This document shows, piece after piece, positions 1,953-18,619 of a stretch of 23,349 nucleotides of DNA. Each line of letters begins with the position of its first letter. Position 1 is the first letter of the stretch. Source of the stretch: a virus; the IMG/VR virus record IMGVR_UViG_3300046167_000197, positions 1-23,349 of that record; one strand, given 5' to 3'. The position numbers and the translations under genes are program-made. The notes under the pieces are model-generated. The model had not been told where the DNA came from, made no database searches, and worked only from the letters and a program-made list of their open reading frames with translations.

Positions 1953-2124
1953 CGTCCACCTCTTCTTCGGCTAGGGGTTCCATGTCTGCTAGATCTTCTT
2001 CTAGCTCATCCATGTAATCAGGTGTGTAGATCACAGGATTGTCCTGAACCTTCATAAGCTCTTCAGGCATACTACCTTTCAGAAAGCTCTTAATTGACTT
2101 CTCAATTGCGTCTTCAAATTTCAT
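1945..2124 (-). CDS. Small acidic protein, 59 residues
   Basis: ATG at 2124 lies inside the end of the S74-protein gene (11-nt overlap) and the stop overlaps the next start by 8 nt. The product begins MKFEDAIEKSIKSFLKGSMP and ends in a strongly acidic tail (DELEEDLADMEPLAEEEVDD). It is probably helical and has no cysteine. Continuous overlaps and codon use like the neighbours make it a credible gene. Function unknown; short acidic proteins next to ejection proteins may be assembly helpers. Confidence 0.65.
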   Translation of the reverse strand: MKFEDAIEKSIKSFLKGSMPEELMKVQDNPVIYTPDYMDELEEDLADMEPLAEEEVDDV

Positions 2125-4237
2125 TTTTAAGCTTCCCGTAATTAACCATCAGGTAGCCCTCTGGCCCCTCAATTACCGTGTCAGGATGTGTCTTCTGAAC
2201 TTCCTGTGCGATCACGCCCATGGTCGGATACTTGTCGTAGCCGATTTCCTTGGCTGTGTCGTTCCAATCCCATGTATAGAACTGGACGCCGTTGAGTGTG
2301 TCATAGGGCTGAATGTTTTCTTTAAGTCGTACATCAGAAGCACCTGCAGCGGCTGCAGCAATTTGAATACCGCCGCCCAGAAGCGTATCAAAGAGGCTTG
2401 CCTTCTGTGGTGTTGCAGCCTGTGCTTGCATCTCACCTAATAGAAGGCGAAGCTCAAACTCTTCTTCACTAACCGCACCCTTGAACAAGTAATCCAAGGT
2501 GCTGTCTGTACGATCCCAGACCCGGTTGAGACCCTCTTGCGACAGATCTAGAATGTTTTTGGTGTCTGCAGCCGCTGCATCATAAGCCATCTGAGTATTG
2601 GTGGTTGCAACTGTCTGCCGCCACTGGGCGTTAGATTCATCCACAGCATATTGCATCTTTGAGTAGAACTGTTGGCGCTCATTTTCCAAAGCCATACGGA
2701 ACTCAGTGGCATCATTAATCTCGCCAGCATTAAACCTTTTAAGTTCAGATAACAGGTTAGCGTTAAACTGTTCCACCTGCGTACCAAGCTCAGTGTAGAA
2801 CTTAGTGAAGTCGTTCTTGCTTTCTGCAGAGAACCTGCGGGTTGCATTCTCTTGTTGTGTATCCTCAAGCAAAACCTGCACACGGGCCTGCGTGTTGACC
2901 ATAAAGGCCTGTTGTTCGTTGGTAAGGTTAGACAGGTCCATTTCTAAGAATGATTTAGCATTCTGTACCGCTGCATTCTCACGGGCATCTAAGTTAGCTA
3001 AATCGAAGTTGGACAGAACCGTCGCTTTGTTGATGATAGCCTGTTGCTTGTTGTCTAGGTTTTTAACAGTGAGTGTTTGAAAGAACTGCGCCTCTTGCTG
3101 TGCAATTGGCAGGCTTGCTTCCATCAGAGCGGTAGCCATAGCCGCTGTGGCTGCAGTACCGGTCATGCCGCTGAATGTAATTGTACGCCCTACTGCACGG
3201 GCCTGTGCTTGCGCCCATGCAGGGATCTTAGGTTCACCGTCAGAGCCAACAAAAGCATCGGCCAGCATCTCAAGCTGTCCGGTTACGGTAGACTTTGTAT
3301 CTACATAGTTTCCTTCGCCCAAATTCTGCGCCATGAGCTTACCGGAAACGGTTCGTGTATCAATTACTTGGCTAAACTTCTGTGCGGCGTAGTCATTTAG
3401 GGCTTCGCCTGTTTGGTTTGCTGTGCCATCAGCGTTAATACCTGTAGCAGAACCCTCCATGTCCAGCGTGTAGCCTTCTGCATCCACTAGATTAGCATCA
3501 CGGACCTCACCTGTGGCAGCGTCCATAATAAACTGTGGGTTATCCATGCGATCAGATGCAGTAGCTGTGGTGAACGATGCAGGGTCTACTGCGGTGGGGC
3601 TGCTAACTGGTGCAATACCAGAGACCGTCTGAGGTAGATACTTCTCAAGCCCCTTGAGGGCGTAGTTAGGATTACTAGGATCTAGTAGTGTTCCTGCAGT
3701 AGCTGGGTCTAGGTTTGGAATAATGTCAGAAAGGTTAATACCCTTTGCATCCAGAAATGCTTTAGGGTCTGCAAGCATCGCTTGGATTTCTTCGTTGGAC
3801 GCAACCACACCAGAATCCACAAGCATTTTAGCTATACCCTCAGAGGACAAAGCACCGGGGGCAGCCTCTTCGCCTGCCTGATCTGCATCTGCCGCAGTCT
3901 GCGCAGAAGAACCGCCCTGCTTTTTATCATTATCATCATCATGCTCAGTAGGGTTTGGGTCAATTATTGCTGTGCCACTGCCAAAAATGTCTTTAATGTC
4001 ACCAACAGCGTCAGAAAACGTGTAGTCTTCTCCGTGTCCTGCAGACTTATCACCAACAGATTTATTTTTCTGGTTGGTATCCGTAGAGTTCATTGCCCCA
4101 CCAGAAATAATCGTATTGGTATCAGTGTTTACCAGATTACCGCCTTGATATTCCGTGTTATTGCCCGTCGTAGTTACATTAGCCAAGCTTTCAGTAAAGC
4201 TGTTGCCGCCACCAAAGGTATCTGCCCATAAACCCAT
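2114..4237 (-). CDS. Large virion protein ending in a Peptidase_S74 chaperone domain
   Basis: This 707-residue protein has a low-complexity Asn/Thr/Gly N-terminus, an acidic region with a run of aspartates near residue 100, and a long helical middle (about 370-600) rich in Ala, Gln, Glu and Asn. The C-terminal 74 residues from Ser634 read SDVRLKENIQPYDTLNGVQF, then YTWDWND, GVIAQEVQKTHPDTV and LMVNYGKL, matching the S74 intramolecular chaperone. In this family, cleavage occurs just before the Ser of the SD-x-RLK motif, with the nearby Lys assisting, and the chaperone is shed after trimerisation. This suggests a trimeric fibre- or rod-type virion component whose mature form ends near 633. Translation starts at the TAATG shared with the o-spanin stop. 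The role in the virion is not identified. Confidence 0.75.
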   Translation of the reverse strand: MGLWADTFGGGNSFTESLANVTTTGNNTEYQGGNLVNTDTNTIISGGAMNSTDTNQKNKSVGDKSAGHGEDYTFSDAVGDIKDIFGSGTAIIDPNPTEHDDDNDKKQGGSSAQTAADADQAGEEAAPGALSSEGIAKMLVDSGVVASNEEIQAMLADPKAFLDAKGINLSDIIPNLDPATAGTLLDPSNPNYALKGLEKYLPQTVSGIAPVSSPTAVDPASFTTATASDRMDNPQFIMDAATGEVRDANLVDAEGYTLDMEGSATGINADGTANQTGEALNDYAAQKFSQVIDTRTVSGKLMAQNLGEGNYVDTKSTVTGQLEMLADAFVGSDGEPKIPAWAQAQARAVGRTITFSGMTGTAATAAMATALMEASLPIAQQEAQFFQTLTVKNLDNKQQAIINKATVLSNFDLANLDARENAAVQNAKSFLEMDLSNLTNEQQAFMVNTQARVQVLLEDTQQENATRRFSAESKNDFTKFYTELGTQVEQFNANLLSELKRFNAGEINDATEFRMALENERQQFYSKMQYAVDESNAQWRQTVATTNTQMAYDAAAADTKNILDLSQEGLNRVWDRTDSTLDYLFKGAVSEEEFELRLLLGEMQAQAATPQKASLFDTLLGGGIQIAAAAAGASDVRLKENIQPYDTLNGVQFYTWDWNDTAKEIGYDKYPTMGVIAQEVQKTHPDTVIEGPEGYLMVNYGKLKNEI

Positions 4238-16920: not shown

Positions 16921-18210
16921 TTAGGCCAAGTTGTAGTTTGCTGTGATCAAGCCTTCTGGGCGCAAGATTTTGCGGCCATAGAGCTGGAGACCCCGAACAA
17001 TGTCTGCGAATGTTTCTGGTGAGCGGAAGCTCTCAGTTTTCGCAATTTGGTCAGCTACTGCTACTGAGGAGTCATGGCCTGCGACCAAAACACCGAAGTT
17101 AGTTGCAGAACCTGCAGAGGCAGATGTACCAGCGCCTGTACCTTTGTAAGGAAGGTTGTTGGACTGATATACACGGAAGCCACGGATGGTGCCGGGAAGG
17201 CGACCATTGCGTACTTCTGAATCGCCACCGAAATCTGAATTTACGAGCTTTGCGTCTTCGTCCATCAAGATCTCTTTGAACACCGGGTCAACGACGATCC
17301 AACGACCATCTGTGTCCACGTTAGCTGCGTCCATAAGACGAGCCATGCGGTTCAGAACAGCCAAAGGTGATGTCAAAGCACCAGCGCCGCCACCTGCAGT
17401 TACAGGAATGGAGTTAGCTGCGGTGGAACCACCGAAGGCACCTTGTGTCAGTTTGTTAGCTGCAAGCAATTCGTCGTTGCCTGCGGCTGCATTTGCTTTT
17501 GTACCTGCTGCTGCAGTACGAGCCGCCCATGCAGAACCGCTCCATGAGTAACCGGACATGTAGCCCAGAACGTCTTGGTCAAACGCATCACGCAGTTTGA
17601 AACCAGCACGGTCTGTTGCTAAATCCATGAACGAAACGTGGGAGTGCGCTTCCTCAATGTCATCTAAAGAAAACTGAAAATAGTTGCTCTGGTCAACAAT
17701 CATAGTGAAATCAATATCTTGCAAGTCTTGTGTCGCAAGCGTAGTGCCACGGGCATAAGAATTGATTGTGATTTCGGGTTCTTTAATAATTTTGCATTAT
17801 GTTCAGGCAAGTTCGCTAGTTTTTGCCCCGCTCTTTCGAGCCGCTACATGTCGCCATGCAGATCAGACTATATCACCATCCGCTAGGGATGCTCTGCGCT
17901 TCGAGCCGCTTGGCTCTACTCCATTTCTGGATAGTCGTTGAACCTTCCTCTTGCGAGGCTTGGCTGCTGATTGTCTCGTAGAGATGTCCCAGCAATTCAC
18001 AGAGTTATTCGATCAGGATCACTCCTGAAAGCCGCCAAAAAATTAAACGGAGTCGCCCATGTTAGCGATTTCGCCAGCATAGTCAGTGTTAGTAATATCT
18101 TCTACTACGGAAGAGTTACGGAAAGCCTTTTGGACTTTCTTGGAATAGATAACTGGTGAAAAGTTACCGTTTGGGAGGTTTGTGTACCCACCCGCTGATG
18201 GAAAAGCCAT
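16921..18210 (-). CDS. Major capsid protein, split by a group I intron: exons 18210-18047 and 17794-16921
   Basis: This is the HK97-fold-type coat protein that builds the head. Exon 1 (164 nt) starts at the ATG at 18210 with AAGGAG 8 nt upstream and encodes MAFPSAGGYTNLPNG through ...IANMGDS plus two bases of Val55. Exon 2 (874 nt) begins C-AAA-ATT and continues VKIIKEPEITINSYARG to TAA at 16921. Together they make 1038 nt, or 345 residues, a usual coat length. The joined stretch GDSVKIIKEPEITI is continuous in the manner of related podovirus coats, which read GDxVxIxKEPxIT here as I recall. Without splicing, codon 56 is TAA. An ATG at 17724 inside exon 2 could be mistaken for the start, giving 267 residues, but it lacks the conserved N-terminal region. 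Gene order (scaffold before, terminator after) fits. Confidence 0.88.
17795..18046 (-). ncRNA. Group I self-splicing intron (252 nt, no endonuclease ORF) in the capsid gene
   Basis: The RNA excises itself by two transesterifications started by guanosine. Visible pairings are as follows. P1: exon CCGU (18050-18047) with GCGG (18035-18032), giving the required U.G pair at the 5' splice site. P10: UUUUG (18040-18036) with exon-2 CAAAA (17794-17790). P2: CAGGA/UCCUG. P3: CUCUGU (18004-17999) with GCAGAG (17897-17892). P4: UGCUG (17994-17990) with CAGCA (17969-17965). P6a: CCUC-GCAA-GAGG. P7: GACUAU (17936-17931) with AUAGUC (17871-17866). P7.1: CCA-GAAA-UGG. P7.2: GAGCC-AAGC-GGCUC. P8: CAUCC/GGAUG. 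P9: UGCAUG-GCGA-CAUGUA. P9.1: GCUC-GAAA-GAGC. The last base is G (17795). The P7.1/P7.2 insertion suggests subgroup IA (IA2-like). No LAGLIDADG, GIY-YIG or HNH frame is present. Confidence 0.93.
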
Positions 18211-18496
18211 TGTAATATCTCCTTGTGAAATGGCAGGTCGGACTAACCGACAGACAAGACAGAAGGGAATTATTAAGTGGCAGTGCTGATGTTATGGGTG
18301 CGTATAAGATGCATCAGGCCATGATACAAATCTACGGGCCATACCACACTGGTAGACTAAAATTCTTAATTCTTCTGAGGGTAATAACAAACTAAGAGGT
18401 AGTCTTTAAAAGAGGCTCTGGTTTGTGAGAGATCATCTAAACAATCTCGTAGCTATCTTATGTAATAAGACAGGTAGAAGTTTGCTTGATATAATA

Positions 18497-18525
18497 ATTA
18501 TAGCACGTTTAGTATTAGTAGTAAA
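18497..18525 (-). promoter_or_regulatory. Sigma70-like promoter upstream of the capsid gene (proximal)
   Basis: TTTACT (18525-18520, 4 of 6 to consensus -35) is followed after 17 bp by a perfect TATAAT (18502-18497), reading toward the capsid gene. Transcripts from here would carry a leader of about 280 nt. Confidence 0.5.
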
Positions 18526-18564
18526 TAGCTATTACTATAACCTGACCCTAGTAGGGACAGCCCT

Positions 18565-18592
18565 AGCATATAAGTATTGATCAAGTTGTCAA
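18565..18592 (-). promoter_or_regulatory. Sigma70-like promoter upstream of the capsid gene (distal)
   Basis: TTGACA (18592-18587, perfect -35) is followed after 16 bp by TATGCT (18570-18565, 4 of 6 to TATAAT) in an AT-rich setting, reading toward the capsid gene. The -10 abuts a short stem-loop. Confidence 0.55.
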
Positions 18593-18619
18593 TAGTTAAT
18601 GTACTAGGACTGCCGTTAA

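Follow-up and report, generated by a model that had tools for sequence, protein, structure and literature searches.

How the main shell protein of a phage could be made from a gene whose reading frame is broken near its start is the question raised by a 23,349-nt virus record from IMG/VR, all of which was analysed and is referred to here as the window. The coat gene begins with an ATG at 18210 on the minus strand, and the unspliced frame runs into an in-frame UAA at codon 56. When 252 nt are taken out, the frame is open over 345 residues and reads GDSV-KIIKEP across the joint. The stop, the resumption 252 nt further on and the 345-residue joined frame had been proposed in a preliminary description of this DNA and were borne out by the reading frames. 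From the anatomy of the insert (Table 1) we consider it very likely that the gene is interrupted by an autocatalytic group I intron, a mobile selfish element of no demonstrated benefit to the phage, which would splice to restore the coat protein.

Sequence comparison identifies the interrupted gene as that for the major coat protein in a phage of the HMO-2011/CRP-like type. The joined protein matched phrog_267 (major head protein; E 2e-59) in PHROG and also matched three solved phage capsid proteins; a Pfam search of the window coat protein returned no match. The closest phage-record homologues among the matches listed were from Roseobacter phages CRP-235 (87.1%) and CRP-738 (80.7%), and the HMO-2011 coat protein was 55.4% identical to that of the window. 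Some coat homologues among the phage records are annotated as P22 coat protein. The CRP-235 coat gene is unbroken; it is preceded by a gene of unknown function and followed by two tail genes, and the gene order in the window is similar. The phage carrying the window coat gene is presumably of podovirus morphology and, judging by its relatives, probably marine. Approximately 400 nt (18211-18619) separate the coat gene from the preceding gene and contain no minus-strand frame of at least 60 codons. Elsewhere in the window, the minus strand of 2114-4237 encodes a protein of 707 residues that carries a peptidase S74 chaperone domain at its C-terminal end and also matches virion structural and DNA-ejection PHROG families.

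Relatives of the coat protein were collected from phage records and from IMG/VR. All 40 homologues listed, from a total of 358 phage records, align as one piece. From IMG/VR, the best 80 of 599 relatives were examined: the joint is read through in 77, the intron is present in L012 and L026, and one locus is cut off. The ranking disfavours split genes, so that 77 of 80 is not a frequency of empty sites. Coat homologues 96.5-97.7% identical to the window protein lack exactly the 252-nt insert. The joint is crossed without a gap in L002-L005, in the two nearest, L002 and L003, by DNA alignment as well; the insertion is therefore exactly 252 nt long, a point that the comparison with intron-less coats proposed in the preliminary description was to check. 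These one-piece homologues, in the phage records and in IMG/VR alike, speak against a dead intron flanked by a split or shortened coat made from separate start codons. That reading, which we hold to be very improbable, can draw on a 267-codon frame opening at a TTG at 17724, but no clear Shine-Dalgarno sequence was seen in the 20 nt before either of the two earliest in-frame start codons within exon 2.

The window was searched with Rfam at the gathering threshold, and the sole match was the group I intron family RF00028 (17844-18055, minus strand; 79.5 bits against a gathering score of 50; E 5.2e-19). The match covers positions 1-253 of the model, which is its whole length, and the covariance-model check suggested beforehand thus came out well above its cut-off. 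The full group I pairing set that had been described from the letters was found again: P1 with its U.G at the cut, P10 and P2 to P9.2 are all there, every named pair is of a standard type and the terminal base is G. P1 comprises only 4 pairs. The pseudoknotted P3/P7 core with P4, P5, P6 and P8, by which a group I intron is recognised, is thus present. Subgroup IA is defined by extra hairpins, P7.1 and P7.2, between P7 and P3; both were found in the window intron, which we take to be of the IA type. The absence of an endonuclease had been read correctly, the longest start-to-stop frames inside the 252 nt being 45 codons in the sense and 52 codons in the antisense direction, so that no intron-encoded homing endonuclease was recognised. 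Nor was an endonuclease gene found among the 19 larger frames scanned in the window, which is a fragment.

Table 1. Features of the interrupted coat gene in the window, and intron sites in coat genes of the same type (L numbers are loci; positions after a colon are those of the locus).
Feature	Position	Strand	Remarks
Exon 1 of coat gene	18047..18210	minus	164 nt, made up of codons 1-54 plus two bases from codon 55
Exon 2 of coat gene	16921..17794	minus	874 nt including stop
Predicted splice joint			exon-1 end GACUCCGU + exon-2 start CAAAAUU
Group I intron without endonuclease gene	17795..18046	minus	252 nt; Rfam RF00028; exact absence in homologues
In-frame UAA	18043..18045	minus	intron positions 2-4; would end translation of the unspliced message at the ribozyme edge
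Guide GCGG	18032..18035	minus	P1 with exon-1 CCGU (18047-18050), U.G at cut
Guide UUUUG	18036..18040	minus	P10 with exon-2 CAAAA (17790-17794)
P2 hairpin, GUGA loop	18014..18027	minus	5/5 pairs in 12/12 aligned introns; 4 pairs with two-sided change
P3 5' strand (18000-18004), P4, P5, P6, P6a	17940..18004	minus	pairing and comparison
P7 5' strand GACUAU (guanosine site)	17931..17936	minus	partner AUAGUC at 17866-17871
P7.1 and P7.2 hairpins	17903..17931	minus	pairing and comparison
P3 3' strand and P8	17877..17896	minus	pairing and comparison
P9, P9.1, P9.2	17806..17859	minus	pairing and comparison
Site A	inside codon 55		window, L092, L093, L012, L026 and others
Site B	after codon 106		L275:3151-3420, L277, L278:3151-3422, L117:726-995, L164:3891-4160, L205:385-654
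Site C	inside codon 96		L130:4044-4878, L168
Site D	after codon 20		L092

An unconstrained fold of the intron alone was only mildly better than those of shuffled sequences (z -1.61; 15 of 200 shuffles as good), and covariation was relied upon for the structure instead. The set comprised 12 representatives of 21 coat introns, taken from four sites of the coat gene; near copies and the endonuclease-bearing intron of L130 were left out. In the named helices 93.1% of cells were paired, against 33.1-40.1% for slid versions of the same helices, a comparison favoured by the relatedness of the introns and by the structure having been drawn from the window itself. Two-sided changes were present in 39 of 67 pairs. 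None of 500 shuffles attained the covariation score, but 48 of the 500 attained the count of further pair types. Wherever an intron has letters, pairing is complete in P2, P3, P6, P7, P7.2, P9, P9.1 and P9.2. Across the set P7.2 was 100% and P7.1 94% paired, both with two-sided changes. Pairing reached 86-88% in P6a, P8 and P10 (P8 87%; P10 columns 87.5%) and was weaker in P4 (83%), P1 (79%) and P5 (77%). These six lower values are partly due to length differences and to one misaligned 5' end, the aligner (MAFFT) having put the 5' exon end of L026 in the wrong place, to the disadvantage of P1. The group I fold is, on this comparative evidence, supported by covariation among twelve related introns, and core helices that covary are a further point against a dead intron.

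In the proposed reaction, exon 1 (CCGU) of the coat transcript, and later exon 2 (CAAAA), would pair with the guide sequence of the intron. A bound guanosine would cut after the U of exon 1, the freed exon 1 would attack after the terminal G of the intron, and the joined exons would encode the 345-residue coat protein. The early UAA may serve to keep ribosomes off the ribozyme; an in-frame stop lies within 7 codons of the 5' splice site at site A and in the coat introns inspected at other sites.

IMG/VR was searched with an exact core pattern, and the intron was found at site A in 12 further contigs carrying 11 IMG dataset numbers, some of which could be re-assemblies of one sample. Its length is 252 nt in seven of these contigs, 258 nt in three and 248 nt in L092, and in L087 it is cut by the contig end; both junctions are visible in 11 of the 12. 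The window is a single metagenomic contig, as would be expected of an assembly chimera or sequencing artefact; the recurrence of this intron in 12 further contigs, each time at site A, tells against any assembly error and leaves that explanation a negligible probability. A search with exon 2, which is independent of the intron, gave among the best 80 loci nine with the site-A intron and three with another intron further on. Four plasmid records matched the intron, none of them over 80% of its length.

Group I introns were located by reading frames at at least three further sites of the HMO-2011-type coat gene (sites B, C and D, Table 1). Those of L275, L277 and L278 and both introns of L092 scored 74-98 bits with Rfam. 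The introns of L117, L164, L168 and L205 were assigned from the core pattern and alignment, and that of L130 from the pattern and the frame. When the Rfam group I model was applied to 11 related contigs, no group I intron was returned in six. L092 (7545-8164) carries two introns in a single coat gene; in the numbering of the window coat, one lies at codon 20 and the other at codon 55. The L130 intron, at 835 nt, contains a 172-residue frame that matches PHROG 1035 (endonuclease VII; 2.1e-41) and, more weakly, HNH endonuclease families; Pfam gave no match for this frame. Local conservation of the coat protein stands at the 94th percentile at site A, the 93rd at site D, the 81st near site B and the 68th near site C, and the highly conserved position that had been ascribed to the window intron was thereby upheld.

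The introns group by site. Those of the window and L092 at site A are 87.9% identical over 248 nt; the two introns within the L092 gene are 74.9% alike, and the site-B introns of L278, L117, L164 and L205 are mutually 80.5-92.2% alike. The window and L092 differ far more in their coat genes (exon 2, 60.0% identical DNA; coats, 55.8% identical protein) than in their introns, of which the simple reading is transfer, not shared descent. Horizontal transfer of the site-A intron between distant coats is thus strongly indicated by these comparisons. The window intron had earlier been offered as a possible neutral mobile remnant. Its distribution does fit a mobile element, but 'neutral remnant' is too weak a term for an intron that has apparently moved between 56%-identical coats. 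We regard it as a selfish element lodged in a conserved part of an essential gene. Lacking an endonuclease gene itself, it would spread by recombination between co-infecting phages or by means of a borrowed endonuclease acting in trans.

A coat tree was made by a quick method. Matching gave 171 sequences, of which 161 were kept after rows with 40 or more gaps had been dropped (L205 among those lost); 116 remained once contigs present twice had been reduced to one copy and identical intron-less rows removed. On this tree, with forks open among close rows, the site-A label needs six changes and the site-B label four. L092 is on a long branch and its placement is unsure. L093 and L278, which are paired with a support of 94, differ in their intron site, the former having an intron at A and the latter at B. 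This pair bears on the proposal that the intron is a regulatory device, the efficiency of splicing governing how much coat protein is made or when; that splicing may time capsid production had been suggested in the preliminary description. The position of the intron in the gene for the main shell protein, the immediate stop in the unspliced message and the recurrence of related introns beside head-protein exons all lend it some colour. Among closely related coats, however, some have the intron and others lack it (nine of the best 80 loci carry the site-A intron), and such patchy presence points to gain and loss and argues against an essential regulatory role or a conserved switch. We therefore consider regulation improbable and retain the selfish element as the preferred reading.

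The exon flanks of site A were compared between alleles with and without the intron. The sequence CCGU|CAAAA is present in the window and in 10 of 10 close intron-bearing alleles and in none of 77 empty ones, among which the 5' half CCGU was found in 17 and the 3' half CAAAA in five. The shared flanks may reflect co-conversion or simply the requirement that the exons match the guide sequence. Over 20 nt at the joint, intron-bearing alleles differ from their nearest empty ones by 3-6 positions; these junction differences were considered as proof of co-conversion and dropped, as the empty alleles also vary there (0-7 among themselves). Exon 1 of 10 other site-A alleles, one of them identical to the window, shows no replacement and 0-17 synonymous codon changes. 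That only synonymous changes separate intron-bearing alleles in this exon is a final point against a dead intron; the pattern is as expected if exon 1 is still translated within the coat, and some of the changes may predate the intron.

To survey the host genes of related introns, IMG/VR was searched with two exact core patterns, each giving at least 120 stretches, and 119 (L094-L212) and 117 (L281-L397) new loci were examined. Flanking exon fragments of at least 40 residues were used in the first set and of at least 100 residues in the second, and PHROG tallies were taken over the first 25 families. The commonest family was a major head protein in three of the four tallies (10 of 89, 7 of 76 and 9 of 82 fragments). 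In the fourth (upstream fragments, L281-L397) it was photosystem II D1, with 11 of 76, the same head protein and an endonuclease VII coming next with six each. Among the families listed, 2-3 fragments each were assigned to DNA polymerase, RNA polymerase and terminase. With eight fragments that had PHROG head-protein matches, plus the window coat, as seeds, a head-protein exon was found to adjoin the intron at 32 of 119 loci in the first set and 17 of 117 in the second, counts which are not strictly comparable owing to the different fragment cut-offs; the intron had such an exon at either end at 13 loci of the first set and 2 of the second. A head-protein exon lay within 1.6-1.9 kb at 38 and 24 loci of the two sets. 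Several distinct head-protein families were represented among the adjoining exons. All these host-gene counts describe a sample of two core variants, not a census, and are raw with respect to gene length.

By DNA similarity the intron core matches 653 records of cultured phages, whose group I introns share the core of the window intron and differ from it in their host genes. In seven matched phages that were inspected, the gene in or beside which the intron lies is that for terminase in two and for ribonucleotide reductase, DNA polymerase or primase/helicase in one each; in the remaining two the neighbours are hypothetical proteins. No capsid gene was named under the match in the 60 matches listed of the 653, many of which carry no annotation there. 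We regard as evenly balanced the wider proposal that the head gene is a favoured home of introns in uncultured tailed phages, and that separate intron lineages moving between phages have entered the HMO-2011-type coat gene at four or more sites, so that capsid production in the wild would often depend on ribozyme splicing, hidden by cultured collections.

Group I introns in capsid genes are already known, including in podoviruses, with splicing demonstrated in mycobacteriophage LittleE. The suggestion in the preliminary description that none had been described in a podovirus coat gene is accordingly not supported: crAss-like phages of the Delta and Zeta groups have them (PMC7886860, PMC10136315), and the review that repeats the finding describes crAss-like phages as podovirus in morphology (PMC10136315). 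These phages resemble the window in morphology and in having group I introns, in one case several per gene, in the major capsid gene, and differ in phage order and hosts and in that their introns were identified mainly by endonuclease domains. RT-PCR and N-terminal sequencing demonstrated the splicing of the LittleE intron (PMC3706429). It shares with the window the major capsid gene as host, a U ending exon 1, a G ending the intron and relatives without it. It is, in contrast, 819 bp long with an endonuclease frame, resides in a Mycobacterium siphovirus and is 'most likely' group I in its authors' words (PMC3706429), whereas the window intron has 252 nt, no endonuclease and a score from the group I model; splicing is known for the former and deduced from anatomy for the latter. 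A capsid-gene intron of lactococcal phage Tuc2009 is cited in the same paper. The minor-tail-gene intron of BAKA, whose splicing was demonstrated, is like that of the window in being small (265 bp), free of an endonuclease and in a virion gene, and unlike it in belonging to a mycobacteriophage tail gene (PMC3706429). A cyanophage psbA intron, also cited there, may be compared with the photosystem II D1 fragments of our upstream tally.

Many introns have been reported in terminase, nrdD and polymerase genes of Jug phages, transcripts supporting the splicing of 37 of 76 (PMC12363816, a preprint). A DNA polymerase gene intron is suspected in OM43 phages, which are distantly related to the HMO-2011 type (PMC10580990). 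T5orf172 homing endonuclease genes neighbour terminase (35%), ribonucleotide reductase (33%) and capsid (31%) genes, and capsid genes were thus already known as a homing-gene neighbourhood (PMC10448857). Among the open-access papers listed by literature searches, no report was found of an intron in HMO-2011-type coat genes and no paper on introns in major capsid protein genes of uncultivated viruses; the main text of a group I intron database paper mentions neither phage nor capsid. New here are the twelve other contigs with the site-A intron, the transfer indicated by L092, the further sites in the coat gene, the presence of two introns in one gene, the HNH-type endonuclease frame of the L130 intron and the counts of head-protein exons adjoining related introns.

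If splicing occurs as the anatomy suggests, the main shell protein of such phages depends on a ribozyme, and gene callers would report a cut-off coat, the 267-codon frame, for them. The wider pattern, with several sites in one gene, transfer across distant coats and many head-protein hosts, makes it possible to test whether introns favour those late genes that are most highly conserved and expressed, and by what means endonuclease-free introns move.
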